The translations under genes and the position numbers were made by a program. A stretch of DNA of 64,000 nt, taken from the IMG/VR virus record IMGVR_UViG_3300035181_002074, positions 96,613-160,612 of that record; one strand, given 5' to 3'. The notes below the pieces were generated by a model. The model had not been told where the DNA came from and did no database searches. It saw nothing but the letters and a program-made list of their open reading frames with translations. Shown piece by piece: positions 1-41,639 of this stretch. Numbering within the stretch: position 1 is the first letter of the stretch; each line of letters starts with the position of its first letter. The DNA is from a virus.

Positions 1-684
1 GATCTATTTAATACCCATTTATTTCCAAGATTCTTACCAAATCTTTCTGAATCTCATCAGATGATCTTTTCTGGCTTAGATAAAGAAGATCCAGAAAAAG
101 AATCTACTCGTTTACAGCAAGATATGAATGTTCATTTAACATACAATGACATCCTTAAAAAAGTTGAAAAAGATATTTTGCCTGCGGCTTTTGGTGCAGA
201 TTTTCCTCTTAATCCACAATTCCAGCAAGTTGTTGAAAAGTACATGACTTTTGGTGAAATCCAAGAAAACTTTTTTGGTAAAAAAGGTGCAGCCCAAGAT
301 CCTAGAAATCAATGGTATGCTAATCCAATGTGGATGCAACAGCAACAAATGCTTGTCCAAAATGCACAGATTGCTATGCAAAATCAAATGCAAGCCCAAC
401 AAATGGTTGCCCAAGCCATGAATCCACAGCCACAACAAGATCCTAATGCCCCTCAACAAGAAGGTGACGGTGGGGAACCTACGCAGAAATCTGAAAAAGA
501 TTTTTATGGTGAAATATTCCAAAAGAATATGCAAAATATTCAAACTAATCATAACACGATCAGTAATATGATTCTAGCTAGACATTCTGCTATTACTAAA
601 AAGCATTCAGATGATTTCCAAAAGCAATCTAAAAAAGCTGCTGAAAAATTAACAGCCGGACTGATTAAAAAGAAGAAAAAATAA
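1..684 (+). CDS. Portal protein, C-terminal part (5' end outside window)
   Basis: The frame is open from base 1, so only the C-terminal ~227 residues are seen. A portal role is inferred from position (directly before a Mu F-like head gene and the prohead protease) and from the Q/M-rich, then basic, C-terminal tail typical of portal tails. Residues around DNA 300-440 are a run of Q, M, N and A, probably flexible or coiled. A K-S-E tripeptide is encoded at 487-495, followed by a mostly helical tail ending in a lysine run. That site could be a prohead-protease cut removing the tail. The first in-frame ATG (61) is not taken as the start because the frame continues upstream. Confidence 0.6.
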   Translation, partial: DLFNTHLFPRFLPNLSESHQMIFSGLDKEDPEKESTRLQQDMNVHLTYNDILKKVEKDILPAAFGADFPLNPQFQQVVEKYMTFGEIQENFFGKKGAAQDPRNQWYANPMWMQQQQMLVQNAQIAMQNQMQAQQMVAQAMNPQPQQDPNAPQQEGDGGEPTQKSEKDFYGEIFQKNMQNIQTNHNTISNMILARHSAITKKHSDDFQKQSKKAAEKLTAGLIKKKKK

Positions 685-702
685 TCTTATTCGGAGAATT
701 CA

Positions 703-1551
703 ATGAATCTATCTACCGATCAAGAAGAACTAATCAAAATAACCTTACAGGCTTTGTTTGAAACTATCAAAGCCAAGTTTCTTGGTAATTTTTACAAAGG
801 ACCATCGATTTATTTTGAATTAGCTACTAAGCAAAATCCACTAGATACCGTTGGTGGTATTTTTGAGTACGCATTGAGAGCAACCACGAAAAATCCCGTT
901 ATCGATCATGACCTCATTAGTAAGCTTGCGAATACATCAGAAAATTATATCGAAGCCGAAAAACAACGCACAATGGAACGGATTTTAACCGGCGCCGAAA
1001 CAGTTACAAATCCCGACGACCTGAAAGATCTTATTCAAACGTCTATTGATAAATCGAGCAAATATATTGACTTATTAATGGCAACGGAAACTCGCAATGT
1101 ACAAGCGTGGGGTGAAATGTCTGGAATTCAGCAGGTTGGTGCATCTTTGGGCGTAGATGATCCAACTATCGCTCGCTTAGGTGTATGGGATGATAAGATT
1201 TGCGATGCTTGCCTGAAATTATGGCACCAACCGGATAATCAAAAAATACCACGTGTATGGAAAATGTCAGAGCTTCAAAGTGGGTATAATACCGATCAAA
1301 AGAATCCCGTGCCAACCGTATCAAGTACGCACCCCCGGTGCAGACATATCCTGACAATTGTTCCACCCAGTTTTGGGTATGACGAAAACGGGCGAATTAA
1401 GTTTATTCGGTTCGGTTATGATATCTATGATGATCAAAAGGGTATTCATAAAAATGAACGATCTTTCCGTACAGGTGGTACGACTGACGATGTGGAAGAA
1501 TTTATTAATCTGCATCTAGCAGAAAGCTGTTGTAATCATTCAGGAACTTGA
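703..1551 (+). CDS. Phage Mu gpF-like minor head protein
   Basis: 282 residues, starting 18 nt after the portal stop behind a GGAG Shine-Dalgarno. The C-terminal half has the pattern of Mu F-like head morphogenesis proteins: C167-D-A-C170, then H210-P-R-C213-R-H215, a probable zinc or cysteine cluster, followed by a short beta-rich tail. The N-terminal half is helical (residues 1-130). Members of this family are minor capsid proteins made next to the portal and needed for head assembly, which fits this location. No K-S-E site is present. The family call rests on the Cys/His pattern and gene order, not on a database search. Confidence 0.6.
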   Translation: MNLSTDQEELIKITLQALFETIKAKFLGNFYKGPSIYFELATKQNPLDTVGGIFEYALRATTKNPVIDHDLISKLANTSENYIEAEKQRTMERILTGAETVTNPDDLKDLIQTSIDKSSKYIDLLMATETRNVQAWGEMSGIQQVGASLGVDDPTIARLGVWDDKICDACLKLWHQPDNQKIPRVWKMSELQSGYNTDQKNPVPTVSSTHPRCRHILTIVPPSFGYDENGRIKFIRFGYDIYDDQKGIHKNERSFRTGGTTDDVEEFINLHLAESCCNHSGT

Positions 1552-1607: not shown

Positions 1608-3587
1608 ATGAAAATATACGGAATAGGCGCCAGTCAAGCCATTGATTCTTCAGGGGAAATCTTAATGATCGACGGTGTCGATCTATCCGATGTTCATGCT
1701 GGAAAAGCCTTCTTCAATTGGGAGCACAGTAACGATGGCGCCGATACCTGCGTCGGAAGCCTGACTTTTGCCAAAAAAATCTATTCTGAAAAAGACTGTG
1801 AAAATCCAAAACAATTAGAATGCTGGAATGAAACCCTTTTACCAATGATTTACATTGAAGGGGTTCTCTTTGATAAAGAAGGACATGTTGGGGCAATTTG
1901 CTTGGCCGCTATGTTTCGTTCATTTGTAGCCAGAAATCAAAAAATTGAAATCGGTTCTTCCATTGAAGGTTCTACCATGGAACGTGGAAAAGGCGAAGAG
2001 CACCATGTTCTTAAAAGAACTGTAGCCCGCCGTTGGGCAATTACCCTCAGACCGTGTAACAAGCAATGTTTCCTTAAGGTATTGGCAGACGATACTGCTG
2101 ATGTAATGAAATCGGAAATCGACTGGGATTCTATCAGTCATGATCGTGCCCCAAAACATGGATTCATCGAAATCGACGACCCAATCGAAGATATTTACCA
2201 CACTATTAATGAATTAAATAAAACCCTAACAGCTGGATCGTCTAATGTTGCACCAAGTCAAATGGTTGGCGGATCTGCACTTACCCGTGAAAATCTAGTA
2301 CCTAAAATGCAAAACGTTGGGATGCAAACTAGACTGAAAGCATCATTCAAGCGTTGGAATAAAAAGAAACCACTTAAGGAGCACCTTAAATCTGAGCTTG
2401 AAGATGTATCAGAGGAGTATATAGATAACTTCGCTAAACTCGCTGATGAACTCCATATTAAGAAATCTGAAGAATCAATGCATACTTGGCAACAAGTTTG
2501 GAATAATATGAAAGATTTCCATACTGGTTCAGTTAATGAAAAAGATGCACCCCATATGCACAAAGATGCGCAAAAATATGAGCATTATAAACTTAGAAAA
2601 ATCCCACTATCAAGTTTACATCATGGATCTGATACGCCCGATAAACCATTAGATCGCGAAGATGAAGCGCATGCACATCATTACGCTAAATTAGATACCC
2701 AAGCGCCACCAATCACTCTGCACCCAAAAGAAACTGGTTACCATATCGTAGATGGTCGTCATCGTGCTAGAGCTGCATACCTGAGAGGCGACAAAGATAT
2801 TCTAGCTTACGTTGGTACTCCTATTCAAGCATTCACTAAATCTGAATCCCCTATTCGTATAGACCAGTCAATTGGTAATGATCGCGCAAATGCAGACCAG
2901 AAAGCTTTAATTGCAGGTATAGTTGTGCCAGCCAATGGCGGACAAAATATTCAAGTCATGAATGATTACGGCCAATCATCCCATATCAAGCCTTCTGCCC
3001 TGACCGAATCAGGTGGAGAAACCGCTAAAAATGCTTCTGCATATTATGCTGCAGCAAAAGATTTTTTCGACTTGGGCGAGCATGTTCCAGTATCAGCCTA
3101 TTTTGCACACCAGACGGCACCACAAGAAGGGGCACCATTATTTCTAGCCACCGAGCATGTATCTGGTAAGCCATCGCTCATGGGTTCATTGTTTGAGGAT
3201 TCTATCGGTAAAGATAAAAATCTTATGCATAAAATTGCATTAATGGATACTATTTTGGGAAATTCACACAGAAACCATGGTAATATTATATTGGGAGATA
3301 CACCAAAGCTGATTGACAACGAACACGCTTTCGAATATAAACAAAAACCAGCGTTTCACATCAATCAATCCGGTGCCGACATTATTTCCGAAGATGTTCG
3401 TAATTGGTTAACTAGTAAGGATGCCAAGAAATTGGCTGGCTTGCTTGCATCACATAGAATCGGTATAGACCGTATTAAGAAAGCTATTTTTGCATTGAAG
3501 ACTGCACAAAAAATGAATCATCATCCGATAGGTACCATTTTAGAGAACGTCCACTTTGTGGAACCTTCTCCAGAGGTAGCACAGTAA
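1608..3587 (+). CDS. Prohead protease fused to capsid-type segment, ParB-like and kinase-like domains (polyprotein)
   Basis: 659 residues; prohead proteases are usually about 200. Residues 1-165 look like the protease: H40 in a W-E-H context and S118 in I-G-S-S-I-E-G, the serine motif of phage prohead proteases. K-S-E follows at 168-170. Residues 203-240 closely match the major capsid N-terminus of this phage (both have AGS, AP and GSAL in register). More K-S-E sites lie at 261-263, 286-288 and 411-413. Between the last two is a ParB/sulfiredoxin-like domain with D-G-R-H-R-A-R. After 413 comes a region like HipA/PI3K-type kinases (L-G-N-S-H-R-N-H-G-N, then L-I-D-N). The usual catalytic Asp of that loop is not in place, so it may be inactive. 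The gene has its own late motif. I infer that it is cut into separate proteins. Confidence 0.75.
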   Translation: MKIYGIGASQAIDSSGEILMIDGVDLSDVHAGKAFFNWEHSNDGADTCVGSLTFAKKIYSEKDCENPKQLECWNETLLPMIYIEGVLFDKEGHVGAICLAAMFRSFVARNQKIEIGSSIEGSTMERGKGEEHHVLKRTVARRWAITLRPCNKQCFLKVLADDTADVMKSEIDWDSISHDRAPKHGFIEIDDPIEDIYHTINELNKTLTAGSSNVAPSQMVGGSALTRENLVPKMQNVGMQTRLKASFKRWNKKKPLKEHLKSELEDVSEEYIDNFAKLADELHIKKSEESMHTWQQVWNNMKDFHTGSVNEKDAPHMHKDAQKYEHYKLRKIPLSSLHHGSDTPDKPLDREDEAHAHHYAKLDTQAPPITLHPKETGYHIVDGRHRARAAYLRGDKDILAYVGTPIQAFTKSESPIRIDQSIGNDRANADQKALIAGIVVPANGGQNIQVMNDYGQSSHIKPSALTESGGETAKNASAYYAAAKDFFDLGEHVPVSAYFAHQTAPQEGAPLFLATEHVSGKPSLMGSLFEDSIGKDKNLMHKIALMDTILGNSHRNHGNIILGDTPKLIDNEHAFEYKQKPAFHINQSGADIISEDVRNWLTSKDAKKLAGLLASHRIGIDRIKKAIFALKTAQKMNHHPIGTILENVHFVEPSPEVAQ

Positions 3588-12116: not shown

Positions 12117-12935
12117 ATGAAATTCTCCGATATAGAAATAGATCAACTATTAGCATCCGTAGAAGATGCTATGGCACAAGCTAGTAAGCTTGCTAAGTCT
12201 CAGCCGATGCAAAAAGATGCAGACGCTGATCAAGACGATCAGCAAGCTGCTCCAGCAATGGATGCCCAAGCTCCTGAAAGCGCTCCAGCAATGGACGCTG
12301 CTCCAGCTGCTGATGCACAAGCTGCTCCTGATCAAGACCAAGGACAAGACCAAGCCCCAGAAGGTTCACCAGAAGATCAAATCCAAGATGAAGGACAAGA
12401 TCAAGGCGAAATTTCTGATGAAGAACTTCACCAAATCTATGCGAGCATGGATGAAAATGAACTTCATAGGCATTTGACTGCTATTGAAGCAGCTCTAGGT
12501 GGTGGACAAGATCAAGGCCAAGAACAAGAACAACAAGCTCCAGAACAAGCGCCAGCAGCTGCTCCGGCACCTGCGTCAATGACTGACCAAATGGCGATGA
12601 AATCTGAACAAACTGTAAGTGACCTCAATAAATCTGAAACTAAAAAGCTTCAAGATGAAAATGATGCACTTAAAAAGTCACTTGATAAAGTAATTTCAGC
12701 AATGGGTAAAGCTTTTCAGCCAACTCGTAAAGCTGTAACCGATATCGAGTATATCCAAAAATCAGAGTCTCAAACCGACGAGCGTCCGCTCACTAAGTCT
12801 GAAACTGTGGCACAACTCAACAAAATTGTAAAATCTAACAGCCTCTCAAAAGCCGATAGACAAGCAATCAACGATTACATCCTTGCGGATGGATCACAAG
12901 AACAAGTCAAAAAAATTCTCAAAGGGGGAAAATAA
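12117..12935 (+). CDS. Scaffolding / prohead core-like protein with four K-S-E sites
   Basis: 272 residues, directly upstream of the capsid gene with 3 nt between them. It is highly acidic and rich in A, Q, D and P (residues 30-160), then a coiled-coil-like helix (about 170-200) and a basic helical C-terminus. This is the usual composition of phage scaffolds. K-S-E occurs at DNA 12600-12608, 12630-12638, 12759-12767 and 12795-12803. T4-type and phiKZ-type prohead cores are degraded by the maturation protease at short motifs ending in Glu, so the clustering fits a protease-digested core. Assignment is from composition and gene order. Confidence 0.7.
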   Translation: MKFSDIEIDQLLASVEDAMAQASKLAKSQPMQKDADADQDDQQAAPAMDAQAPESAPAMDAAPAADAQAAPDQDQGQDQAPEGSPEDQIQDEGQDQGEISDEELHQIYASMDENELHRHLTAIEAALGGGQDQGQEQEQQAPEQAPAAAPAPASMTDQMAMKSEQTVSDLNKSETKKLQDENDALKKSLDKVISAMGKAFQPTRKAVTDIEYIQKSESQTDERPLTKSETVAQLNKIVKSNSLSKADRQAINDYILADGSQEQVKKILKGGK

Positions 12936-12938: not shown

Positions 12939-14327
12939 ATGGACTTAATTAAGCAACTAGAATCCCTAGTTAAAACCTTAGAGGCTGGAAGTTACAATTC
13001 AGCACCGGGACAATTAGTACAAGGATCTGCGCTTCAATCTGAAGATCTGTCAGCTGTTATGCATAATGTGTGTATCGCTTCAGATGAGATTAAATTGCAG
13101 AAACTTTTCGGTAAGAAAAAAGCAAAATCTCTTACCATCCAATTCAATCGTCAGTTATCATACGGACGTTTGGGTGGAGCAGCTCAGCGCGAAGGCGCGG
13201 TTGGTAATACCAACGTAGGCGACTACGTTCGTGCTACAGTACCTATGTGCTTCTATTCAGAAGTACGCAGAGTGACTGAAGCAGCTAACTTGATCGAAGC
13301 ATTTGATGGTATCAAAGCAGAAGATCGCGAAGCTGAAAACGCAGCTGAAGTAATTGCTATGAACATTGAGTTCGACCTTTTCAAAGGTAAAGCAGACTTC
13401 TCTAACGCAGGTGTATTTGATGGTCATCCAGCAGCTATGCCTGAATTACCAAACATGCTTGGAGTTGACTCTCAAATTCGTCAATCTGACATGCTTGTAA
13501 CTACTCAAGACCTTATGTTCGCGTCTTACGGATCTAATCAATCTGTAGTTCTTGCTCAGAACGCTGCTCTTGACCAGATCGTAATTGAAGATGCTCGTCT
13601 TCGTGCAAAGTTGAACTTTTCACAAGCTAAGAATCTTTATGTAGATCCTGTAATCATGACTAGCTACAACAAAAAAGTTGCACTTGGTACTGGTACTAAC
13701 AGTATTCAACGTATTCAACTCGCTGGTTCTGCTCAAGACGTTTCTGGAGCTTCTCTCCGTCGTCAATGGACAGCTCACGGTGATGTTAATCTTGAAGAGT
13801 CTCACTTCTTACGCGGTAAGACTTCTCCACTTCGTCCAAACATTGGTGGGCCTTCTGCTCCAGCAATCACTACTCAACCATCTTTCGGTGGTTCTGGTTC
13901 ATTGATTACTGCGGGTACTTATGTTTACCTAGTAACTGCTCAAAGTGAAATCGGCGAAAGCCCTGCTACTGCTACTAACACAGTTTCTCCTACTACTGGC
14001 ACAGTTGTTACTATGACAATTACTGCTCAGTCTGGAGTTAAGTTTTACAGCATCTATCGCGGAACTAATGCTAAGAATGCTAAGTTCATCGGTAACGTTG
14101 CTGCAACTGGTGGAAACGTAGTATTTACTGACCTTGGTAATAAGGCTCCGGGATTCGTCACAGGGTACCTCCTAGACGAGAAGACTTGGGAAATGCATGA
14201 TCTTGCCGCTTACAGTCGTAAGAAACTTGCTCAATCCGATCTTTCTACTCCAGAGGCCCATTATACCTTCACAACTGTGGCAGGATACCAACCTCGTAAA
14301 AATGTAATTATCGATAATTTAATTTAG
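12939..14327 (+). CDS. Major capsid protein with C-terminal Ig/FN3-like insertion
   Basis: 462 residues. N-terminal 35 residues: helix L-I-K-Q-L-E-S-L-V-K-T-L-E, then AGS...GSAL-Q-S-E. Q-S-E ends at E35 and is a likely maturation cleavage point. Residues 36-300 look like an HK97-fold capsid shell (E/A-rich helix region near 100-150, then long beta segments). About residues 300-405 form a separate beta domain with G-T-Y-V-Y-L-V-T-A and V-K-F-Y-S-I-Y-R-G-T, like FN3/Ig surface domains, after which the shell sequence resumes. It follows the scaffold and ends before a strong terminator, as expected for the most abundant head protein. Confidence 0.8.
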   Translation: MDLIKQLESLVKTLEAGSYNSAPGQLVQGSALQSEDLSAVMHNVCIASDEIKLQKLFGKKKAKSLTIQFNRQLSYGRLGGAAQREGAVGNTNVGDYVRATVPMCFYSEVRRVTEAANLIEAFDGIKAEDREAENAAEVIAMNIEFDLFKGKADFSNAGVFDGHPAAMPELPNMLGVDSQIRQSDMLVTTQDLMFASYGSNQSVVLAQNAALDQIVIEDARLRAKLNFSQAKNLYVDPVIMTSYNKKVALGTGTNSIQRIQLAGSAQDVSGASLRRQWTAHGDVNLEESHFLRGKTSPLRPNIGGPSAPAITTQPSFGGSGSLITAGTYVYLVTAQSEIGESPATATNTVSPTTGTVVTMTITAQSGVKFYSIYRGTNAKNAKFIGNVAATGGNVVFTDLGNKAPGFVTGYLLDEKTWEMHDLAAYSRKKLAQSDLSTPEAHYTFTTVAGYQPRKNVIIDNLI

Positions 14328-14706: not shown

Positions 14707-14708
14707 TC

Positions 14709-14876
14709 ATCGAAACTTTTAGTATTTATCACACCAATCAATTTTCTGGAAACGATACTTGGTTATACCAAGTATTATCTTTTAAATGGATTGAAAGTAG
14801 ATATGGTGGTTACTGGCTTCGGTCGGGTAGAGACTGGAGAATTAGCTACGTAGAGGAGAAATTATGTACCAAATAA
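14709..14876 (+). CDS. Small aromatic-rich protein, apparent ATC start
   Basis: A 55-codon frame rich in W, Y and S, like the other tiny genes here. A strong promoter (14662-14690) and AGGAG (14697-14701) lie upstream. The codon 7 nt after the Shine-Dalgarno is ATC, and there is no in-frame ATG, GTG or TTG in the frame. Its stop overlaps the next gene by 13 nt, and its 3' end encodes that gene's GAGGAG site. Either ATC is used for initiation, or the start codon was lost by one substitution. Confidence 0.4.
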   Translation: METFSIYHTNQFSGNDTWLYQVLSFKWIESRYGGYWLRSGRDWRISYVEEKLCTK

Positions 14877-15159: not shown

Positions 15160-15165
15160 GAATTC

Positions 15166-15304: not shown

Positions 15305-15319
15305 ACTATAGAGGTAGTT

Positions 15320-15836: not shown

Positions 15837-15842
15837 TTATAT

Positions 15843-25363: not shown

Positions 25364-25866
25364 ATATAGCAGCTAATCAAATTCAAGAAAAGAAACTTGC
25401 TGGCGTTTGTAAAAATGGCCCAGTTGTGTATATCCTTACTAAAGGAGGACTCCACAGCATGTTCTCACGTGATGGAAAAGGTGATATAGTATCACTTGCC
25501 GCCGCCCCACACCGAGCGATTTGTACTTTTTTTGCTGAAAAGAAAGATCCTAGTATTAAGTGGCACAGTGATTTTTTATCTAAAACTGATGGAACTGAAA
25601 TTGACTTAATTAAGAACGAAGAAGATCAATTTCAAAAATATCGTAAAATGATTTGGTTTCAAACTGAAGATTTCTATAAATCGGAAGCGTCCGATATTTA
25701 TTTCGTATATGATACATCATCAAATGATATCTGGATCTCTGATTTGAATGAAATTAAAGAAGATTTACAAAAGAATGAAATTAACCGAAATTGTATAGTT
25801 CGACCAATCGATCTCAGTGCTCCGCCAAGAATGCTGGATCTTTGTGATGAATTCAAAGTGGAATAA
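25360..25866 (+). CDS. Uncharacterised virion-block protein
   Basis: 168 residues, coupled to the previous gene by ATGA. Alpha/beta with many D, E and K. It contains one K-S-E, but in a compact part of the chain (F-Y-K-S-E-A), so I do not count it as a processing site. No family recognised. Confidence 0.5.
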   Translation: MNIAANQIQEKKLAGVCKNGPVVYILTKGGLHSMFSRDGKGDIVSLAAAPHRAICTFFAEKKDPSIKWHSDFLSKTDGTEIDLIKNEEDQFQKYRKMIWFQTEDFYKSEASDIYFVYDTSSNDIWISDLNEIKEDLQKNEINRNCIVRPIDLSAPPRMLDLCDEFKVE

Positions 25867-27355: not shown

Positions 27356-27922
27356 ATGTCAAACAACGACGATCTTAAATGCAAAACAATGGGGAACAGG
27401 CTTTTTAAAAAACAACGCGCCGCTTTATCTAAAGCTAAATTGAATGAAGCTCCATCAGGTGCTGCAATACCCAAATTACCATCCATGCCTAAATTACCAG
27501 TAGCTCCAGTAGCTCCGGGTAAAAATCCTGCAGGCCAAGCAGCTAAGCAATCAATGCAAGCAGCTAAAGGTCAAAATACTAAAGTTGCCCAAGCACCAAA
27601 AGCTCCAAAATCGTTACAAACTCCGAAGGCTCCAACGACTCCGAAGATCGGAAAATCAGAATTACGCTTGAGTGAAAAAGAATTATATACCGATTGTGAA
27701 CATTGCGGAACGCCACAATTTACGAAAACAGCGGCAGGACCAGAATATGCTCCATGCGCATGTTTCATGGTAACTAAGTCTGAAAAATTTGTTACACTTA
27801 GTAAAAATGAATCAGGTTACTCTTTAGACTTCAATCCGAAATCAGATCCAGAATCTGTTAAGGCATTCCTTTTAGCTTTGAAAGCAAAATTACTAGTTAC
27901 GAAAAAATTTGGGGATCAATAA
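27356..27922 (+). CDS. Cargo-like protein: K-S-E-flanked zinc motif with P/A/K-rich arm
   Basis: 188 residues. Residues 25-98 are a disordered arm rich in P, A and K with repeated A-P-K and T-P-K. K-S-E occurs at 100-102 and 141-143. The ~38 residues between contain C-E-H-C-G and later C-A-C-F, a compact zinc-ribbon-like unit. The C-terminus is a small helical domain. The site spacing suggests that maturation would release the zinc unit separately. Confidence 0.6.
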   Translation: MSNNDDLKCKTMGNRLFKKQRAALSKAKLNEAPSGAAIPKLPSMPKLPVAPVAPGKNPAGQAAKQSMQAAKGQNTKVAQAPKAPKSLQTPKAPTTPKIGKSELRLSEKELYTDCEHCGTPQFTKTAAGPEYAPCACFMVTKSEKFVTLSKNESGYSLDFNPKSDPESVKAFLLALKAKLLVTKKFGDQ

Positions 27923-29077
27923 ATGGATAACCTTTGGTGTGCAATGGTGAGTAAGCAAATAGCCGACTCGATCCGTAAAGACCTTGATGGTGGTCGATTT
28001 GCGGATGCTACCAATGCTACTAACCTACTTAAAGCATTCCAACAAAACATTTCCAATATGTGCCAGCAAAACGGTGGACGTGTTCACGTATTTTTGCCTG
28101 AATGGATGGTAATGGAATGTCCACAATCCGTTGCGGAACAAATCCCACAATTATTGGCAAGCTTCAATGAGCAAATTGGTCATTCAATGGCCTGCGGTAT
28201 AGGCTTAGATTTTTCAGAAGCCGTGAAAGCTGTTCATCAGTCTGAACGTAGTGGTGAAATCTGCTTATACGAAGAAAAGACCTTGAAGTCGGAAGGATTA
28301 TCTATTCCGCCCAATCTTTTTGATTACACCGATCAATCAGTAGCTAATAATGATGGAACTAACGCAGAAGAGCAAGAATTTGCCTCTGCACCAGATTTCC
28401 AGAATTCAGTTAAATTAGCGCAAGCCCAAATCCAAGCAATCATCCAGCAATTAGGCGGAGATGCCCAAGAAAAAGCTCAACAACAAATTCAGCAGATTCA
28501 ACAACAACAAGCACAGGCGCAACAAGCTCAGCAACAGCCACGTGATCTTACGGAAGCGTTACATGGCCAACAAATCCAAGGTCGCAATCCATACAGTGGT
28601 GATTCAGCTAAACCAGAAGATAAAAAAGAATCTAAATCCGATTCTAAAGAAACTAAAAAAGACGAACCAGAAGCATCCGAAGAAGATGATGGAAACGACG
28701 AAGTCCAGCAAAAACTTGGCGCCGCATTATTACATATCAAACAGCAAATTCCACAACTAATGGATCTCGCTGAAAAGAATCCAGATGCATTCAAACAGTC
28801 AATGTCACTTGTTCAAAAACTTTTGAATCTCACAAAAAAGACCAAAGGTCAAGTTGAGAAAAGTGAAATGGAAATCTTGACTGAGGATTTAAATAAAAAA
28901 ATTATCCATTTACCGGTTGGCACAATCAAAGACCGCAAGAAAAAAGTATTAGTAAATGGAAAAGCTGTATGGCGCAGTATCATCAGTGGAGAGGTCCGCG
29001 ATTTACAAGGCCAGCCTGTTTCTGTGAAGTCATCTAATCTCTCCGCATCCAAAGGCAAGCAAGCCGGAGAGAAATAA
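27923..29077 (+). CDS. Cargo-like protein with degenerate nucleotidyl-cyclase (mCpol/GGDEF-like) domain
   Basis: 384 residues. Residues 1-118 resemble the palm fold of GGDEF/mCpol cyclases: a first strand and helix, a segment ending N-G-G-R-V-H-V-F-L-P, then M-A-C-G-I-G-L-D-F-S-E-A and S-E-R-S-G-E. The catalytic G-G-D-D/E position reads L-P-E-W and the first Asp is absent, so it is probably inactive. K-S-E follows at 122-124. Residues 150-290 are Q-rich then K/D/E-rich with a helical bundle. A second K-S-E lies at 313-315, before a basic beta-rich tail. Starts right after the previous stop. Confidence 0.5.
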   Translation: MDNLWCAMVSKQIADSIRKDLDGGRFADATNATNLLKAFQQNISNMCQQNGGRVHVFLPEWMVMECPQSVAEQIPQLLASFNEQIGHSMACGIGLDFSEAVKAVHQSERSGEICLYEEKTLKSEGLSIPPNLFDYTDQSVANNDGTNAEEQEFASAPDFQNSVKLAQAQIQAIIQQLGGDAQEKAQQQIQQIQQQQAQAQQAQQQPRDLTEALHGQQIQGRNPYSGDSAKPEDKKESKSDSKETKKDEPEASEEDDGNDEVQQKLGAALLHIKQQIPQLMDLAEKNPDAFKQSMSLVQKLLNLTKKTKGQVEKSEMEILTEDLNKKIIHLPVGTIKDRKKKVLVNGKAVWRSIISGEVRDLQGQPVSVKSSNLSASKGKQAGEK

Positions 29078-32658: not shown

Positions 32659-33696
32659 ATGGCGATTCTAGCGACCGACATTCTAATAAAAACAGCCATG
32701 GAAGGCGCCTTAGCTGATATGCGTCGTAACGAATATCTTCTCGATGACTGCTTTGGCGGTCTAGTGGATGATGTTCTTTCTAAAGCGGAATTTGGTACCA
32801 AGGAATTAAATCAAGCTAAAAACTTCATTATAAACAATAATATACCAGTTTATCTCCCATATCGGGTGGACTCACCCTCTACCCCAGCACTCCTAATTAC
32901 CCGTTCCCAAGCTACGGAAGCCAACGACAGAGCTTCCTTAGCCGATGATGGTGAAGACCAAGCTTATGATCCAGCCAAGGCTGGCCAGCCATTGCACCGT
33001 ATTGTACCCCCATTTACGCCTACATTCTATGATGCTGTTCAGGGTATGGTTACTATGCCAAGCCCCCATACGACTTACCAAGTAGCTGCAGGCATGTTCT
33101 TGATGGCTAAAAATGGAAGATCATATCAAATTACCCAAATCTTGGATGATGTGACGTTTTTAATCGCTGCAAACATTAACGAAGATTTCACCGGTTGCTA
33201 TATTGTTCCAGAAACCAAGACTTGGCTAGCGCACAGGGAAAACCTTTTCTTTAGCGAAGGCTGGACTATCACGGTAATGGCATCAGGTGAGCCAATTTTC
33301 GCTGAGTGGTTGCGCCAATTAGTAATTTACTGTTTAAGCCGCTACAGGGAAGCTTATCTAGAAGCAAGAGGATTCGAAATATCTTCTATGCAAGCAGGTC
33401 CAGTTTATTTAGACCCGTCATTTGAAGGAACCAAAGTATTTGCCGCTAAAATTACCTTAAGCGGCACAGTGCCAGCAACTTGGATTAAGTATATTAGTCC
33501 AGTATTTGCGAAAGTTGAAGGCGGAATTAAGATTTTGGAAATGCCTAAAACTCCTGAATATTATATGGATCAAGTAGCTAAGCAAGGATGGTCATCAGTA
33601 AATGATAACATCGATTTACTTGGTCAAGACGAGTCCGACTCCCAAACTATCGGTTCCGCAGACGATGATTATTTATTAGGAACTACCGATGAATAA
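32659..33696 (+). CDS. Virion structural protein (neck/tail region)
   Basis: 345 residues. Helical N-terminus with D-D-C-F-G-G-L-V-D-D-V-L, beta-rich centre, and an acidic tail ending D-D-D-Y-L-L-G-T-T-D-E. Late motif and position before the large cargo polyprotein support a structural role. No K-S-E. Family not recognised. Confidence 0.5.
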   Translation: MAILATDILIKTAMEGALADMRRNEYLLDDCFGGLVDDVLSKAEFGTKELNQAKNFIINNNIPVYLPYRVDSPSTPALLITRSQATEANDRASLADDGEDQAYDPAKAGQPLHRIVPPFTPTFYDAVQGMVTMPSPHTTYQVAAGMFLMAKNGRSYQITQILDDVTFLIAANINEDFTGCYIVPETKTWLAHRENLFFSEGWTITVMASGEPIFAEWLRQLVIYCLSRYREAYLEARGFEISSMQAGPVYLDPSFEGTKVFAAKITLSGTVPATWIKYISPVFAKVEGGIKILEMPKTPEYYMDQVAKQGWSSVNDNIDLLGQDESDSQTIGSADDDYLLGTTDE

Positions 33697-36600
33697 TATT
33701 ACCCCGCCGCCAGCAAAAGCTGGGGACACATCACCAGATGGACGCATGACAGCAATCAACCATAAAGATTTAGGTATAGTCTGGGACGCATCTCCGGCTC
33801 ATAAACAGCAAATGGATTCCAATACGCTTAAAACTGCCAGATCTTGGTTACAGACTCAACCTGTTGAGAATCATCCAGTCTTAAAAGCCTTTATTAATCA
33901 AACGCTAACTAGTCCTAATCGTCATTTACGCTATGGTTCAGATATTCAAAATGGTCCAGAAGTAGTTAGGCAGCGCCATATTCATCAAATGATCACTAAT
34001 CATCCAGATTCCAAGCTGATGGTGCATAATCCAAATTCGTTGAGTTTATACGTTAACAGGCACGGTCGAGATAAAAAAATATCACATTTCCAGTTTAACT
34101 TACAAAATAATGTTGCAAAATCTGAAACGTTGTGTTATAATAATGAGTATGGAACCTACACAGACGAATTCTGTAATCGATTTAAGTACACTATTGGCGA
34201 TGACGGAAAACTTGCCGAAAGCGGAATGGGACGCTATTTGGGCAAGAACGAACATGGGGACGATTATTACGAAAGCAGAGATTATGAATCTGACCCTAGT
34301 CGAATTCAGTCTGTTCTTGAACTCCTACGATACAGCCGCTTGTTTAGAAGCACCGGGCAGAGTAGCGATGCAGGAAGTGATGGATCACTTCAACGTAGTG
34401 AACCATTGTTATTAGCAGACCAGCTAGCTAAGCATTTTTTAGGTAAAGGCTCTTTACAGAGAAGAAATCCTTTTAATCCGAATTCGATTCCAGATACCGA
34501 ACGAAAGGCTGTGGAAGCCTGGACTAGTGGTTTTGCAATATCACCAGATAAAATCCTAGCAGCCCCGAAAGAAGCAATAGATCGTGGTGTGCATAAATTA
34601 CACGGCAGAACATCCGTCCGAAAAAACCCAGCCACCGGTGAGCGTGAATTTTTATTACACAGGGGAATGAGACCTAGCCAGTCTGCAGATTTTCAAAATG
34701 GTGGCGCAATGCGTAATACTTCTTGGACACCATCATATGAAGCCGCCAAAGGTTTTGCATCTGATTATTTACGAGAAGAGCAAGATGATACTGATTGGGT
34801 TAAACAATACCAAACGCAATATGGCAGAGACTTAGATCTATCTAAGCCGCATATACATTCAGCATGGATTCCAGAATCAAAAATTTTACATATTCCAAAT
34901 ACTATTGGTCAAAAAGGACACGGCCATAGCGATGATCCAACTTGGGATAAAGATCAAAAGCCATCAAAAACACTTCGCTATCGCGAACATGAAGTGATCG
35001 TAACGCCCCATCAAATGGCAATTGAAAGTAATCCTGAAAAACATATTAAGTTGCCTCATACTGAAGGCTCATTACATGAGCGAATCAATTCACGTGCAAC
35101 TAACAAATCGGAATACTTTTCTAATAAACTAGCTCCTTTAGCGAAAATGTCTCGCCCCGTTTTGAGATTCCCAAAATTAGGCGTTGACCCGCGTTCCGAA
35201 CAAAATGTACAACAAATTGAAACAGGTAAACAAGCTGAAATGTATGGCCGCAAAATAACTGCGCATGCCATACCGGATACCACTAAGCCCAACGTTGGGT
35301 ATAAGTTAGATAACTGGGATAATTTGGTACCACATGACTTACCACCTACGAAACAAAGCTTACAACCACAACGAAATAAAGAAGCTAAACGCTTGGCGGG
35401 TAAATTTGGTTCAAGAGTTTTAGGGACTAACGTTCAATCTACAACTTCGGATACAACCAGAAAACCAAAATCTTTCCAAGCGGCATTAGGTGGTAAACTA
35501 CGATCTAAGTATGAAAGCTTTGATGATACTCATGCTGACCGTATGCAAGAGCACTTTACAAAAAAACGCGACGCATTAAGACAGCACAGCCAAAATCTGG
35601 ACAATTGGTGGAGTTCAAGACCCACCCGTGCCGCAGTGCATGCAGCTAATCCTGATTCTGCAACACCAGAAATGGATTTGATTAACGCAACTAATGCCCA
35701 TCGTAAAGAAAAACCAAAACGTCCAGTCGTAAGAGCCCCATCGAAGAAACGTATCGCGACAAATAAGCTCACCCCAGATCAACAAGCTTTACGCGGTAAA
35801 ACAGTTGATAGTACTATTGAGCATGAAGCAGCTCACGGAGTATTTGACCAGATTGAGCAAAAGCATGGTAAACAAGCGATGTTCAAAGCTCGCAAGCACA
35901 TCTTAGATGCATTTGATCACGATTCATATAGCACTTTGTCTCGTTTTATTATTAGTCGTAATTATAATCCAAAATCAGAATCCTTCCCAGAAGAAATATT
36001 AACGCATGCTAGAGATATTTTAGTTAATCCGACCAAGCGCACCGATTTCATGAATAAGCTTCCAGCTACTATGACCCCAGAGCAAAAACAAATGGTGGTA
36101 AGTAAAATTAAAAAACAATGGGAAGAAGCTTACCGTCGTAGCCAAAACTTAAAGCCAGAAGATATCGTAAATAAATCTGAAGATCTAAATAAAGCATTAT
36201 CACCCGATGAATTAAAGTCACAAGGATACTCCTTTAAAATATTAAACCCGAATAAAAGCAGATCTAGTTATTTAATGCGAGCTTACCATAATAACAAACC
36301 TGTTGGACATATGATGTATAGTGGTCGAGCATTCAGTGTTCCCGATAATGAAAATATGGCAGATCGTTCCCATAAAAACGGCTACCATGATGTTTCGAAT
36401 TCCAATCTTGGGGAAGCACATCGCGGCAAAGGCATTTATCAACACATGCTGAACCTCGGTTCAGAACATGTCAAAAGTTTAGGTTCTAAAGGTCTAATGT
36501 CTTCTGGCTACCAAAGAAGTTCGTCCGCAACGAGAGCATGGGATAAGACAGCTACCCATTCATCGGTAGTTACACCGAAAGATGTTGGTGTCGTTAGTCC

Positions 36601-37438
36601 AGACGTGATGTCCCCTGAGTGGAACCAAGTTTTTGATCCCAAAAAACGTAAAAACGCCGACTATTTTAAATCTGAACCTCTTATGAAACCGTGGGCATCA
36701 CAAGCTCAAGCTGCATGGGGACATTCAGAAGCCGGTAAAGAAGCATTAGGTGCCGAAGGTGTTAAACATTGGGATGCAGCTACTCACGGGAAACATTTAC
36801 CTAAAAGAGTTAAAAAGGATGAGCCTTTAATGAAACCTAAATCTTTAAAACAAAAATGGTATGACAAATCCCTGAAAGAAAAGAAACAGGTCGTACAGGA
36901 AAAAATGAGACAAGGGCCAGCTTTACCACCATTGAAAGACTCACTTAAGCAAGCAATGGATGTTTTCAAAAAGCCTGCACCAAAAGAAGAAGTTAAAAAA
37001 GAAGAACTAGCTAAGATGCCTGTTGTGTTCAGCGGCACCAAGAAGAAACCTTTTACAACCATCCAAAGAATGCAGAATAAAGAAGGTCAAGGCCCGTATG
37101 TCAGTGGCGGAGATATTCCAGAACTGGAAGAACATGGAGATTCTAATGCATCGTGGGATGTCGCAGAAAGAACGCCGAATCCTATTGACGATGAAGGATT
37201 CACATCGGCAGATCAGAAAAGACTTGGACAGGTACCAACGCCAAAAACCCCTAATGTTAAATTCGGTTTCCATAAACCAGAACATGCCAAAAATTGGTTT
37301 TCACCAGAAGAAACTGAAGCCCTAGCCCAACATGGATTCACATTGCAGCCAGTTAAAGCAGCTAAAGTATGGTCATCAGGTAAACAAGCCTTCTTTGAAG
37401 CATATAAAGGCAAAGCTAATAAGAAACCGAAAATCTAG
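33689..37438 (+). CDS. Cargo polyprotein: ADP-ribosyltransferase, HExxH metalloprotease, GNAT, separated by K-S-E sites
   Basis: 1249 residues, overlapping the previous gene by 8 nt. K-S-E at 144-146, 473-475, 829-831 and 994-996 divides it into five parts, with one more at 762-764. Part 2 has the ART signature: H-R325-G, N-T-S345-W-T-P, and E433-H-E435 (R-S-E, with ExE as in arginine-specific toxins). Part 3 has H712-E-A-A-H716 zinc protease. Part 4 has a GNAT-type R912-G-K-G-I-Y acetyl-CoA loop. Part 5 has W-G-H-S-E-A-G-K-E-A-L-G and H-L-P-K-R-V, common in phage internal proteins, plus a C-terminal F-G-F-H-K-P-E-H-A domain. Probably packaged, cut and injected to modify host proteins. Confidence 0.75.
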   Translation: MNNITPPPAKAGDTSPDGRMTAINHKDLGIVWDASPAHKQQMDSNTLKTARSWLQTQPVENHPVLKAFINQTLTSPNRHLRYGSDIQNGPEVVRQRHIHQMITNHPDSKLMVHNPNSLSLYVNRHGRDKKISHFQFNLQNNVAKSETLCYNNEYGTYTDEFCNRFKYTIGDDGKLAESGMGRYLGKNEHGDDYYESRDYESDPSRIQSVLELLRYSRLFRSTGQSSDAGSDGSLQRSEPLLLADQLAKHFLGKGSLQRRNPFNPNSIPDTERKAVEAWTSGFAISPDKILAAPKEAIDRGVHKLHGRTSVRKNPATGEREFLLHRGMRPSQSADFQNGGAMRNTSWTPSYEAAKGFASDYLREEQDDTDWVKQYQTQYGRDLDLSKPHIHSAWIPESKILHIPNTIGQKGHGHSDDPTWDKDQKPSKTLRYREHEVIVTPHQMAIESNPEKHIKLPHTEGSLHERINSRATNKSEYFSNKLAPLAKMSRPVLRFPKLGVDPRSEQNVQQIETGKQAEMYGRKITAHAIPDTTKPNVGYKLDNWDNLVPHDLPPTKQSLQPQRNKEAKRLAGKFGSRVLGTNVQSTTSDTTRKPKSFQAALGGKLRSKYESFDDTHADRMQEHFTKKRDALRQHSQNLDNWWSSRPTRAAVHAANPDSATPEMDLINATNAHRKEKPKRPVVRAPSKKRIATNKLTPDQQALRGKTVDSTIEHEAAHGVFDQIEQKHGKQAMFKARKHILDAFDHDSYSTLSRFIISRNYNPKSESFPEEILTHARDILVNPTKRTDFMNKLPATMTPEQKQMVVSKIKKQWEEAYRRSQNLKPEDIVNKSEDLNKALSPDELKSQGYSFKILNPNKSRSSYLMRAYHNNKPVGHMMYSGRAFSVPDNENMADRSHKNGYHDVSNSNLGEAHRGKGIYQHMLNLGSEHVKSLGSKGLMSSGYQRSSSATRAWDKTATHSSVVTPKDVGVVSPDVMSPEWNQVFDPKKRKNADYFKSEPLMKPWASQAQAAWGHSEAGKEALGAEGVKHWDAATHGKHLPKRVKKDEPLMKPKSLKQKWYDKSLKEKKQVVQEKMRQGPALPPLKDSLKQAMDVFKKPAPKEEVKKEELAKMPVVFSGTKKKPFTTIQRMQNKEGQGPYVSGGDIPELEEHGDSNASWDVAERTPNPIDDEGFTSADQKRLGQVPTPKTPNVKFGFHKPEHAKNWFSPEETEALAQHGFTLQPVKAAKVWSSGKQAFFEAYKGKANKKPKI
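34113..34141 (+). promoter_or_regulatory. Internal sigma70-type promoter inside the polyprotein gene
   Basis: TTGCAA, exact 17-nt spacer, TATAAT; an ATG in another frame begins 8 nt later. It overlaps the codons of the first K-S-E site. Confidence 0.5.
34149..34415 (+). CDS. Possible overprinted small gene in another frame
   Basis: 88 residues, M-E-P-T-Q-T-N-S-V-I-D-L then helical, with a normal globular composition. It lies wholly inside the polyprotein gene in a different frame, directly behind the promoter at 34113-34141. An in-frame ATG also occurs at 34143. Over the same stretch the polyprotein frame reads as Y/G/S/R/D-rich low-quality sequence. There is no Shine-Dalgarno, so expression would need leaderless initiation, as at several other genes here. 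Could be a captured early gene. Confidence 0.4.
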   Translation: MEPTQTNSVIDLSTLLAMTENLPKAEWDAIWARTNMGTIITKAEIMNLTLVEFSLFLNSYDTAACLEAPGRVAMQEVMDHFNVVNHCY

Positions 37439-38009: not shown

Positions 38010-40385
38010 ATGGGATATTTTCAAAAGTTAGCCAAAAATACGAGATGGTCAGGCAAACATCTGTCAACACCGCAAGCTGGTGATTCTATTCATTTTTCCC
38101 ATCCAGAACATGGTACAGTATCGGTTGTAAAAGATGGTGGCCAGTATCATGTTAAGCATAATGGCGCTCACGCTGGAATTTTAAACCAAAAAGGCATTTT
38201 CAATACCCCAAAAGAAGCCGTACAACATGCCAAGGATTTCATGGCTAAACTAGGCTCTGGTGGACATGGTAATGCTATGCACAATATGCCTAGCGCACAA
38301 TCCATGCCAAGTAAGCCGCATCTACAAGCCCCTAAAAATGATGTTTTCGGTAAAGCTGAAGGATATGCCCCATCGGCAGTAGATAGCCCAAATTTTAAGA
38401 TCGGCGGCACGTTAGCTGATTTCCAAGCCGGTGCCCAAACGAATAGCTTTTCTAGCCCAACTCCGATTCCGCCAGTAATGAAAGACGAAAAACCAAATTA
38501 TACTCGCAATATATGGCATCCAAAACGATTAGATGTTGGCTCCCATATCATGTATCAAGGCAAGAAACATAAAGTAGTTGCCCAGCATCCGAAACCGGAC
38601 AATAGCGCTAATTTTAAAGAACATTATCATACCACACTTTTAGAGGTCAAAGATCCAATTAAAAAAGAAGAATTAGATAAATCTACAGCATTAGAAAGAC
38701 ATTTACAGGCGAAAGGTAAAAGTAAGAATCAAGCCCGTGCTGTCAGATCTCGCGGGAATCCAAAAGGTGTACATTTACCGATTGATAATAAGGGTATATC
38801 AAGCGCGGGAGCATATGCCACTGGACGTATTCGTACCGCTGATGAAAATTTTAATGCAGTTCCTAAATCACAAGATGTTCAGCATGCAAAGTCTTTGCAC
38901 TCCCAAAAACTAAGAGAATTGCGCGCAATGCCAAAGCCAGATCTTGGTAAAGCTCGCCAAGAAGAAGATCTTTCATCAAGGCAAAAAGTTCAAGTACGCC
39001 ATGCACGTTCAGAAAAACCTATTCATCCATTTGGAACTAATGAAAGATTCCATCCAGAAGGACGTAATACCCAAATGGGACAAATTGCCCGTAATAATAA
39101 GTTACGTGCATTCAGAAAACAACCTAAGCCAGACTTAGGTAAAAAAGAATCTAAATTAGCTTTCTTGTTTAAGCACGACTATTTCAATCTGTTTAAAACT
39201 GTATCAAGTCCAGTCAGAACTAAAACTATCATGGATTGCCCAGAGGATCATGACATAGCGGTTAATCAAAAATTTGAATCAATGATTATGGATCGTTTAG
39301 CTCAGTTCCGTAAAGACGAATCAGAAAATCCAGCACAGCCAGATAAGCCAGCCGAAACAATTGCCGGTACGCCTAAAAAACAACAATCTAGATCTTATGA
39401 TTTGTTCACGGATGAAATGGCCAACGCAAAAACTGCTAAGAGCGGTAAACGCGGCGAATTTCTATCTGCTATTTTACATTTAGCTCCAGCGGATCTTGCT
39501 GGCGGTAAAGATGTATGCCCATTCGCTACTGACGGTTGCCGACATGCCTGTTTAAATACGTCTGGTCGCGGTGGTATGCTCGACAGAGAATATGATCTCA
39601 ATGATATTCAATTGGCCCGTATTCGTAAAACAAAAGAATTCCATGATAGTCCGCATGCGTTTTTAAGTCGCATTAGTCGTGATATCGAAAAGCTTAAGCG
39701 TTACGCTAAAGCTGACGGACGTAGACCAGTAGTAAGATTAAATGGAACATCTGATATTAATTGGGCGGCATTGAAATCCCCTAATTTGAAAGGGCAAAAT
39801 ATTTTCGACGCTCATCCAGATGTACAATTCTACGATTATACAAAAAATCCATATATTGTAAAAAATAATAAACACCCAAATTATCACGTAACTTTCAGTT
39901 ATGCTGATGGTGCCCAAAATCAAGGCCACGCAAAAGAATTATTAGCTCAAGGGCACAATGTTGCGGTAGTATTCGGTGGCAAAAAAGATGGCCAAGCTAT
40001 TTTCCCTAAAAAATTTAACGGACATGATGTTGTAAGCGGCGATGAGACAGATTTACGTTTCTTAGACCCAAAAGGCGGCAAAATTGTTGGATTAAGCGCT
40101 AAAGCAGACGCTATGCGTGATACTACCGGTTTCGTACAATGGGGTCATGAAGGTGAACCCGATGCCGTACCTAGACCGAAGACTGAAAAAGATCGTTACG
40201 AAAGAGTTAAGCAGTCTGGCGAAGCTAAGGTTGAAGCCTTCAGACAAAAGAAGTTAGACGCTAGAGCTGCAAAAGTGCCAGTTATTAAATCTGAACAAAC
40301 TCTGCTCGAACAAGCCAAAGAATTATTGAAATCATTACAAGAAAATCCAGCACAGCTGGAAGCATTAACGAAAGTTAAGAAATAG
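38010..40385 (+). CDS. Cargo protein with K-P-x-L-G-K repeats and Gp88-like cysteine domain
   Basis: 791 residues. Residues 1-75 form a small beta domain. Residues 235-390 hold two ~60-residue repeats ending M-P-K-P-D-L-G-K and Q-P-K-P-D-L-G-K. Residues 470-715 are a globular domain with C503-P-F-A-T-D-G-C510-R-H-A-C514, followed by V-V-R-L-N-G-T-S-D and F-V-Q-W-G. It resembles the mycobacteriophage gene-88-like family, whose function is unknown. K-S-E at 760-762 precedes a C-terminal helix E-Q-A-K-E-L-L-K-S-L-Q-E-N-P, almost the same as the N-terminus of the next protein. Late motif upstream. Confidence 0.6.
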   Translation: MGYFQKLAKNTRWSGKHLSTPQAGDSIHFSHPEHGTVSVVKDGGQYHVKHNGAHAGILNQKGIFNTPKEAVQHAKDFMAKLGSGGHGNAMHNMPSAQSMPSKPHLQAPKNDVFGKAEGYAPSAVDSPNFKIGGTLADFQAGAQTNSFSSPTPIPPVMKDEKPNYTRNIWHPKRLDVGSHIMYQGKKHKVVAQHPKPDNSANFKEHYHTTLLEVKDPIKKEELDKSTALERHLQAKGKSKNQARAVRSRGNPKGVHLPIDNKGISSAGAYATGRIRTADENFNAVPKSQDVQHAKSLHSQKLRELRAMPKPDLGKARQEEDLSSRQKVQVRHARSEKPIHPFGTNERFHPEGRNTQMGQIARNNKLRAFRKQPKPDLGKKESKLAFLFKHDYFNLFKTVSSPVRTKTIMDCPEDHDIAVNQKFESMIMDRLAQFRKDESENPAQPDKPAETIAGTPKKQQSRSYDLFTDEMANAKTAKSGKRGEFLSAILHLAPADLAGGKDVCPFATDGCRHACLNTSGRGGMLDREYDLNDIQLARIRKTKEFHDSPHAFLSRISRDIEKLKRYAKADGRRPVVRLNGTSDINWAALKSPNLKGQNIFDAHPDVQFYDYTKNPYIVKNNKHPNYHVTFSYADGAQNQGHAKELLAQGHNVAVVFGGKKDGQAIFPKKFNGHDVVSGDETDLRFLDPKGGKIVGLSAKADAMRDTTGFVQWGHEGEPDAVPRPKTEKDRYERVKQSGEAKVEAFRQKKLDARAAKVPVIKSEQTLLEQAKELLKSLQENPAQLEALTKVKK

Positions 40386-40391
40386 GACATT

Positions 40392-41639
40392 ATGAAAAAG
40401 ACTATAGAGCAAGCTAAAGCATTATTGAAAGCTATCCAAGAAAATCCACAAGGAATGGAAGAGCTGAATAAAGCTTTTAATCCAAATATTAAAGGAGTGC
40501 ATCAATCAGCTTTTATGCATAGCGATAAAAGCGGAACTTCAAGTGTAGGCGCCCATATGGCACCCGGCGGTGTTAGTCCTCAAACGAATGCATATGCAAA
40601 AGTCCAACACCTCAAAATTTTAGCAGAGCAAAAAGCAATGAAGAAACCCATCCTTGGTAAAGAAGAAGACGAAGTTTCTATGCCCAAAAAAGATTTTATC
40701 AAAGAGCATAAAAATCTAGTGCATACTCTTAAGACTCCATCACACAAGGATGACCTCGCAGAAGCTAAAGAGCAAGGTAAAGAATTAAAAGAAGAAATGT
40801 CAAAAGCTAAGCTAGAAGAAGGCGCACCTGCTGATTACAAACAAGATATTCGTGCTGCTAGACAAGCCCCAAGACCAACCGTTAATCCAACCATTCATCA
40901 ACCGTTTGACCAAAACATTGGACGTTCTCAAGCTGGGTCTGCAACTGCGGGTGCCCACAAAGCAGCTATGACTGGCATCGGTGGAGCTGGTACTAAAGAA
41001 GCTTTATTAGCCAAAGCAAAACAATTGCACCAAAAAGTGCTATCTGGAATGCAATCTCAAAAAGCTCCCAATCTTCCAAAGTCTGAATTAGAAAAAGCTA
41101 AAATCGACCAAGGGCTATCTATTCCAGCAAAGAACCAAGCACGTTGGGATCGTGGCGGTGTTCACCAAGATCAATCTAAAGGTGTTCATACAGCCCCATT
41201 CAAGTCAGTTCCGGGTATGTCTGTATCAGGTCATGAAATTTCTCAAACTGGTACCGTGACTCCGATTGCTAAAGAATCTCACATCCATAAGGTTAAAGAG
41301 CTTAAAGCGATGTTAGCTCCTAAGCTCGGTAAAGGTTCGGCTATGCCAGCTCCAGCCCCAGCACCAATGTCGAGCGGGTTCGGCAAGATTCTACCTAAAC
41401 CTAAGCCAAAACCAATGTCTGCCCCTGCCCCTATGATGGCTAAAGAAGAGAAATGTACAACTTGCGGTAAAGCAGGATGTAAATGTACCCCAGCGATCAA
41501 AAAAGACGAAACTTCGGCTGCTAATGGTGAAATCGGAACCAAAAAACCTAAAGAATTCGACCCTTTGAAGGATGCGCCAGAATTAAAAGAAATTAACCCT
41601 GCTGCTTACTTTGCTAAGAAAAAGAATAAAAAGAAGTAA
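40392..41639 (+). CDS. Cargo/internal protein with K-P-x-L-G-K repeats
   Basis: 415 residues, mostly disordered and basic. N-terminal helix E-Q-A-K-A-L-L-K-A-I-Q-E-N-P matches the C-terminus of the preceding protein. Three degenerate ~60-residue repeats begin G-V-H or I-H and end K-K-P-I-L-G-K, K-A-P-N-L-P-K and A-P-K-L-G-K. K-S-E at 230-232. The C-terminal part is P/A/M-rich, then C-T-T-C-G-K-A-G-C-K-C, a compact cysteine cluster likely to bind metal. Probably an internal head protein; enzymatic role not evident. Confidence 0.55.
   Translation: MKKTIEQAKALLKAIQENPQGMEELNKAFNPNIKGVHQSAFMHSDKSGTSSVGAHMAPGGVSPQTNAYAKVQHLKILAEQKAMKKPILGKEEDEVSMPKKDFIKEHKNLVHTLKTPSHKDDLAEAKEQGKELKEEMSKAKLEEGAPADYKQDIRAARQAPRPTVNPTIHQPFDQNIGRSQAGSATAGAHKAAMTGIGGAGTKEALLAKAKQLHQKVLSGMQSQKAPNLPKSELEKAKIDQGLSIPAKNQARWDRGGVHQDQSKGVHTAPFKSVPGMSVSGHEISQTGTVTPIAKESHIHKVKELKAMLAPKLGKGSAMPAPAPAPMSSGFGKILPKPKPKPMSAPAPMMAKEEKCTTCGKAGCKCTPAIKKDETSAANGEIGTKKPKEFDPLKDAPELKEINPAAYFAKKKNKKK

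Follow-up and report, generated by a model that had tools for sequence, protein, structure and literature searches.

The head genes of the virus record IMGVR_UViG_3300035181_002074 raise the question of why one tripeptide, Lys-Ser-Glu (K-S-E), recurs in proteins as different as a portal, a scaffold and a series of multidomain enzymes. The stretch of DNA analyzed, referred to as the window, is the terminal 64 kb of this 160,612-base record, which derives from a contractile-tailed phage. An initial annotation had proposed K-S-E as a shared processing site tying the prohead protease to the scaffold and to multidomain cargo. Much of this proposal is borne out at the sequence level: the site is common to scaffold and multidomain cargo, missing from tail proteins, placed at module borders and conserved over about 100 divergent phages. 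The motif itself is longer than K-S-E. Very probably, [LMIVF]-x-K-(S>A>T)-E serves this phage lineage's prohead protease, of the HK97/SPO1 serine type, as its cleavage signal in both the scaffold and the polyvalent cargo proteins.

Among named phages, Myxococcus phage Mx1 (169,621 bp) is the closest, with 49% identity of the capsid protein over 99% of its length, while the uncultured relative G002 (159,805 bp) is closer and has a capsid protein that is 83% identical. The protease open reading frame (ORF) of the window shares 66% identity with the G002 protease and 38% with that of Mx1, and the gene order portal, protease, scaffold, capsid is the same in the window, Mx1 and SPO1. A megablast search of the first 24 kb of the window against phages gave no match. 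With the aligned capsid proteins of the window, G002 and Mx1 as query, 98 related IMG/VR loci were retrieved, of which the best 80 were kept, and a protease alignment retrieved 31 loci. The motif statistics cover about 100 related loci, with 1,216 proteins in all; G000 denotes the whole record and L-numbers denote other loci. Expected counts were obtained from shuffles of each protein, and the head block was taken as the region from portal to sheath.

A motif of the head block

Twenty-three K-S-E sites were counted in long plus-strand ORFs of the window, between nt 487 and 41087, where about 20 had been claimed; one more lies in the part of the portal outside the window. The protease ORF contains four, including the one already noted directly after the protease domain (residues 168-170), and the scaffold also has the four that had been reported. 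The others are located in the portal tail (1), a transglycosylase-like protein (2), a 168-aa protein (1), a zinc-arm protein (2), a 384-aa protein (2), an ADP-ribosyltransferase (ART)/peptidase/GNAT protein (5) and two K-P-x-L-G-K proteins (1 each). The sheath, tube, fibre, tape-measure and hub ORFs of the window are free of K-S-E, in agreement with the initial annotation. The label “cyclase-like,” which had been given to one of the proteins, finds no support in Pfam.

The comparison with shuffled sequences suggested at that stage was carried out for head blocks and the remainder of the genomes. K-S-E was observed 24 times in the head block of G000 (4.3 expected), 20 times in that of G002 (4.4 expected) and 17 times in that of Mx1 (2.4 expected), and is the top-ranking tripeptide by Poisson p in every one of these head blocks (3e-11, 4e-8 and 1e-9, respectively). 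Outside the head block there is no excess in these genomes (3 vs. 7.7, 6 vs. 7.0 and 2 vs. 8.0). The strongest independent support comes from Mx1, because G002 has most of its proteins in common with the window.

Inclusion of a hydrophobic residue (phi: Leu, Met, Ile, Val or Phe) two residues ahead of Lys, which the majority of sites have, sharpens this picture. Head blocks of G000, G002 and Mx1 contain 16, 17 and 12 phi-x-K-S-E sites, the rest of each genome 0, 2 and 1. Across the 1,216 proteins, phi-x-K-S-E occurs 388 times (35 expected), whereas K-S-E without phi is at chance (118 vs. 109). In place of Ser, Ala is enriched 4.2-fold (phi-x-K-A-E, 177 vs. 43), Thr 2.8-fold, Asn 2.5-fold and Gly 2.0-fold; Arg is hardly accepted for Lys (30 vs. 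19, 1.5-fold) and Asp only weakly for Glu (2.4-fold). These preferences look like a protease subsite pattern. The idea that K-S-E arises by chance from linkers rich in Lys, Ser and Glu draws on the location of many sites within charged linkers, but the other five orders of the three residues are near or below expectation in the three head blocks and K-S-E without phi is not enriched. Such a composition artefact was rejected on these two controls and has a negligible probability. Nor is codon bias the cause, since the loci span a G+C content from about 0.31 to 0.70. The motif was not described in the open-access literature searched, a scope that leaves out most subscription journals.

About half of all phi-x-K-S-E sites are situated in scaffolds (200 vs. 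4.8 expected). As scaffold homologues dominate the pooled count, the enrichment was recomputed without scaffolds (188 vs. 29, 6.4-fold) and with each cluster reduced to a single protein (27 vs. 6.5, about 4.2-fold); it drops in both cases, yet persists. Proteins of at least 500 aa exhibit 87 sites (13 expected). In 62 scaffolds of relatives, phi-x-K-[SAT]-E was found 285 times (13.7 expected), with up to nine closely spaced copies per scaffold. The portal carries the motif as well: among 43 relatives whose portal ORFs are long, 21 show phi-x-K-S/A-E within the last 90 aa, mostly at positions -42 to -54.

The candidate protease and the predicted bond

The AlphaFold model of the 659-aa protease ORF is confident at residues 1-163 and about 416-655. 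Among its Foldseek/BFVD matches are prohead proteases, e.g., that of Staphylococcus phage qdsa002 (TMt 0.66) and an HK97-family fragment (TMt 0.64), and a Foldseek comparison with the PDB also yielded PI4-kinases. Curated Pfam models gave no Peptidase_S78 match in the record and no protease match by hmmscan, and a PDB sequence search returned no relative of the protease. The assignment as an HK97/SPO1-type prohead protease is a prediction from the fold and from homology to an Mx1 gene annotated as putative prohead protease.

Several K-S-E sites of this ORF coincide with borders. Homology of the N-terminal module ends at about aa 285-291, beside the site at 286, in more than 20 relatives. The ParB-like module between the sites at 286 and 411 is absent from G002, where one site replaces the two of the window and the sequence I-K-K-S-E-G-L-I-R-I joins the left flank of site 286 (I-K-K-S-E) to the right flank of site 411 (S-P-I-R-I). 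A near copy of the capsid N-arm follows the catalytic domain in most Mx1-like proteases and also in those of SPO1, P100 and phiSA039. It likely docks the protease where the capsid arms dock and would later be cut away.

Which bond is cut within the motif had been answered in the initial annotation by analogy to T4 and phiKZ, i.e., cleavage after Glu. This analogy is probably wrong. A profile search (hmmsearch) connects the capsid protein to SPO1 gp6.1 (E 5.7e-27) and to the phi812 major capsid protein (E 3.5e-14). The phi812 precursor in PDB entry 5lii reads E-D-V-V-K24-S25-F-Q-T-G, and the 439-aa chain of entry 9row starts at S25, which is taken as the mature capsid end. At the corresponding place in the N-arm, about 70 Mx1-like phages show phi-x-K-[AT]-[LM]-E-A-G with few exceptions. 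HK97 is likewise cut between Lys and Ser (K103↓S104; PMC10275583). The scaffolds of SPO1 and phiSA039 are rich in phi-x-K-S (11 and 7 copies, 0.7 expected in each), which is missing from the sheaths of both phages.

As a positive control, the same statistic regained the L-x-E signal of T4 (gp22 16 vs. 5.7, gp21 7 vs. 2.6), and phi-x-K-[SAT]-E was absent from the T4 proteins tested. T4 gp21 cleaves after L-x-E. In the 62 Mx1-like scaffolds L-x-E is depleted (140 vs. 259) and [ASG]-x-E at chance (608 vs. 645), and the T4/phiKZ specificity was rejected for these proteins. Since phi812 capsid and HK97 are both cut at K↓S, SPO1-type scaffolds are rich in phi-x-K-S and L-x-E is depleted, the bond is most likely, by analogy, Lys↓Ser, i.e., phi-x-K↓S-E with Glu at P2'. 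New N-termini would therefore begin with S-E rather than with the residue following Glu.

The same processing system with a cut after Glu (phi-x-K-S-E↓), in the manner of T4 L-x-E↓ or SPN3US/phiKZ A-x-E↓, would account for the strong preference for Glu in cargo and scaffold sites, and SPN3US gp245 indeed cleaves after the Glu of A-x-E (PMC10052503). It is nevertheless unlikely: the capsid-arm sites keep phi-x-K-[AT] and lack Glu at the corresponding place, the documented cuts of homologous phi812 and of HK97 fall between Lys and Ser, phi-x-K-S abounds in SPO1-type scaffolds, for the most part with no Glu following, and the scaffold counts of L-x-E and [ASG]-x-E point the same way.

Cargo modules and their borders

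The cargo chains combine several unrelated enzyme modules, including families first described in polyvalent proteins. Pfam matches in relatives and Mx1 comprise ART-PolyVal, PBECR5, NUDIX, GNAT and PI3/PI4-kinase; Pfam gave no confident match for the window's own modules other than GP88 and ClpP, and these modules were assigned by homology. For example, a 906-aa protein of L077 consists of an ART domain (9-191), a site at 198, a NUDIX domain (215-313), sites at 345 and 361, a PBECR5 nuclease (383-590) and a site at 641. In the 1249-aa protein of the window, the segments 251-449, 478-827, 838-978 and 988-1061 have their matches in separate proteins elsewhere, with K-S-E sites at 473, 829 and 994 (the AlphaFold model of this protein was poor, mean pLDDT 53.6, and was not used). 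The two K-P-x-L-G-K proteins correspond to one gene in G002 (41833-43389), in which the helical module that they share is internal and lies beside a phi-x-K-S-E site; this module may be a packaging or targeting element. Where a protein of at least 500 aa has more than one site, the sites are a median of 263 aa apart, which is domain-sized.

Homology breaks, defined by BLAST ends, are close to sites 1.75-fold more often than expected (129 vs. 74; controls 0.7-1.9). As this boundary test is only modest, more weight was put on mapped domains: the 55 phi-x-K-[SAT]-E sites of 24 cargo proteins all lie outside the mapped modules (0 inside, 10.9 expected), while K-S-E without phi is at chance there (3 vs. 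2.8). Not all K-S-E sites mark domain borders, exceptions being found among those without phi. Site 762 of the 1249-aa protein is inside the peptidase module and not conserved, being K-S-S in a relative, and site 261 of the protease ORF is within a confidently predicted helix.

A number of observations weigh against the proposed cleavage signal. The capsid site has Leu or Met rather than Glu at P2' and is therefore not identical to the cargo motif, and the motif alone cannot tell cutting at K↓S from cutting after Glu. No such site occurs in 69 of 158 proteins of at least 600 aa. Several sites of the window (portal tail, aa 473 and aa 994 of the 1249-aa protein) lack an aliphatic residue or Phe at the hydrophobic position. 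In addition, a control motif likewise avoids mapped modules (0 of 13, 3.7 expected), so that charged linkers explain part of the effect, and one control of the boundary test reaches a similar ratio, on few sites.

Two further explanations assign the sites a different role. As a docking motif, phi-x-K-S-E would bind scaffold or capsid and bring cargo into the prohead while remaining uncut, which fits its presence in scaffold, portal and cargo and its absence elsewhere; this is quite improbable, given up to nine copies along a scaffold chain, the match to the documented maturation cut of the homologous capsid protein, and a placement between modules instead of once per protein. Slightly less probable still is self-processing of the fused proteins by embedded zinc peptidases with K-S-E as their site. 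A peptidase-like module with HEAAH is present in the window's 1249-aa protein, and such a process was proposed for phage P1 DdrB (Iyer et al., 2017; PMC5512222). The motif is, on the other hand, strongest in scaffolds and extends to proteins without a peptidase module, and SPO1-type scaffolds show phi-x-K-S with only the head protease adjacent.

Under cleavage by the prohead protease, the prohead would take in portal, scaffold, protease and multidomain cargo at assembly. The protease, anchored by its copy of the capsid N-arm, would free itself by self-cutting, shred the scaffold at its dense sites, trim the portal tail and the capsid N-arm, and split the fused cargo chains at inter-domain linkers. 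The freed enzymes (ADP-ribosyltransferase, GNAT, NUDIX, kinase-like, ParB-like and nuclease modules) would be small enough to exit with the DNA, and the pieces would be packaged and injected. A more far-reaching version is tentative and falls somewhat short of an even chance: any domain flanked by phi-x-K-S-E would be head cargo, released in the prohead by one protease that is addressed to the capsid by the N-arm copy, and enzymes would therefore be gained, lost and shuffled as cassettes in a plug-in cargo code.

The features of the window are compiled in Table 1. Some further genes were observed. A minimal CRISPR polymerase (mCpol) domain opens head-block proteins of L035 (15332-17785), L043 (19130-20740) and L041 (19476-21365), and in L043 and L041 a phi-x-K-S/A/T-E follows the domain at aa 152-153. 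Downstream of its capsid gene, L081 encodes a 2,266-aa protein (14643-21440) in which a processing-type site lies between a radical-SAM and a DnaJ zinc-finger domain. The head block of the window includes a ClpP-type protease gene (22121-22768; Pfam E 7.5e-30), a Clp-like gene being located elsewhere in Mx1, and two neighboring genes resembling cytosine DNA methyltransferases lie in the head/cargo block (30040-31978). A 2,042-aa head-block protein (4191-10319) of repeat-like sequence has no K-S-E and no confident Pfam match; its G002 counterpart has one K-S-E, without phi.

Table 1. Features of the head and cargo genes (window positions unless a locus is named)
Feature	Position	Strand	Remarks
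Portal, C-terminal part	1..684	+	gene begins upstream of window
Portal-tail K-S-E, T-Q-K-S-E	nt 487-495	+	about 65 aa before C-terminus
Predicted prohead protease fused to cargo, 659 aa	1608..3587	+	identity to G002/Mx1 proteases; AlphaFold model; protease fold aa 1-163; K-S-E 168, 261, 286, 411; N-arm copy about 203-240, then helical region; ParB-like module between 286 and 411; PI4-kinase-like domain about 416-655
V-M-K-S-E, aa 168-170	2109..2117	+	right after protease domain; low-confidence linker 164-189; also in G002
Capsid-N-arm mimic, L-N-K-T-L-T-A-G...G-S-A-L-T-R-E	2214..2333	+	sequence likeness to capsid arm
I-K-K-S-E, aa 286-288	2463..2471	+	model <50 pLDDT at aa 287-289
F-T-K-S-E, aa 411-413	2838..2846	+	ahead of kinase-like domain; low-confidence linker in model
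Scaffold	12117..12935	+	directly upstream of capsid gene; K-S-E nt 12600, 12630, 12759, 12795; three with phi
Major capsid protein	12939..14327	+	phrog_752; Mx1 major capsid protein 49%
Predicted capsid maturation cut, L-V-K12↓T13-L-E-A-G	K codon nt 12972-12974	+	homology to phi812
Transglycosylase-like head-block protein	24113..25363	+	phi-x-K-S-E nt 24329, 25133; both kept in G002
168-aa protein	25360..25866	+	phi-x-K-S-E nt 25678; two phi-x-K-N-E
Zinc-arm protein	27356..27922	+	phi-x-K-S-E nt 27653, 27776; first kept in G002 homologue
384-aa protein	27923..29077	+	K-S-E nt 28286 (no phi), 28859 (phi); second kept in G002
1249-aa polyvalent-type protein	33689..37438	+	K-S-E aa 144, 473, 762, 829, 994; ART-like 251-449, zinc-peptidase-like with HEAAH 478-827, GNAT-like 838-978, further modules
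K-P-x-L-G-K protein with GP88 domain (aa 472-709)	38010..40385	+	phi-x-K-A-E aa 115; phi-x-K-S-E aa 760 before short helical module
Second K-P-x-L-G-K protein	40392..41639	+	opens with helical module ending previous protein; phi-x-K-S-E nt 41079
Protease genes with near copy of capsid N-arm	L133 10416-11186; L134 8085-8879; L135 8086-8859		

Meaning and comparison with known systems

The occurrence of one motif in the scaffold and between the domains of fused enzymes implies that the phage's own head protease would chop these chains inside the head. If the sites are cut, a lineage of tailed phages runs a polyprotein strategy inside its head that can be likened to polyprotein processing of animal RNA viruses, and a single protease serves two ends, maturation of the capsid and release of a variable set of enzymes to be injected. 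With the motif as a sequence rule, head cargo and its mature ends can be predicted for about a hundred uncultured phages and for cultured Mx1. This makes the release of polyvalent proteins directly testable.

HK97 gp4, also a serine prohead protease, belongs to the same fold class and has the K↓S cut given above; HK97 differs in lacking both a separate scaffold gene and cargo polyproteins. In T4 (internal head proteins, gp21) and SPN3US/phiKZ (ejection proteins, gp245), the targets of the prohead protease likewise include scaffold, portal and capsid as well as internal or ejected proteins, but the cut follows Glu (L-x-E, A-x-E). Of the 14 cuts mapped in SPN3US, 13 remove N-terminal propeptides, as opposed to splitting chains into several enzymes (PMC10052503).

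The polyvalent proteins are likewise long multidomain phage chains with ART, GNAT, nuclease and peptidase modules, and direct Pfam matches to ART-PolyVal and PBECR5 tie the cargo of the relatives to them. They are predicted to be packaged and injected, and their release is ascribed to embedded zinc peptidases or C-terminal assemblin-like peptidases; the portions of the polyvalent-protein study considered differ from the present account in giving no common cleavage motif and no tie to scaffold processing (Iyer et al., 2017; PMC5512222).

In the head maturation of Herelleviridae (SPO1 gp3.2/gp3.3/gp6.1, Staphylococcus phi812/K, Listeria P100), the proteases are about 260 aa long and unfused, the sites need no Glu at P2', and no large fused cargo was seen in the head clusters examined. 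The major capsid family and the protease fold are alike, as are the copy of the capsid N-arm after the protease, the scaffold rich in phi-x-K-S and the capsid cut, which reads V-V-K↓S in phi812.

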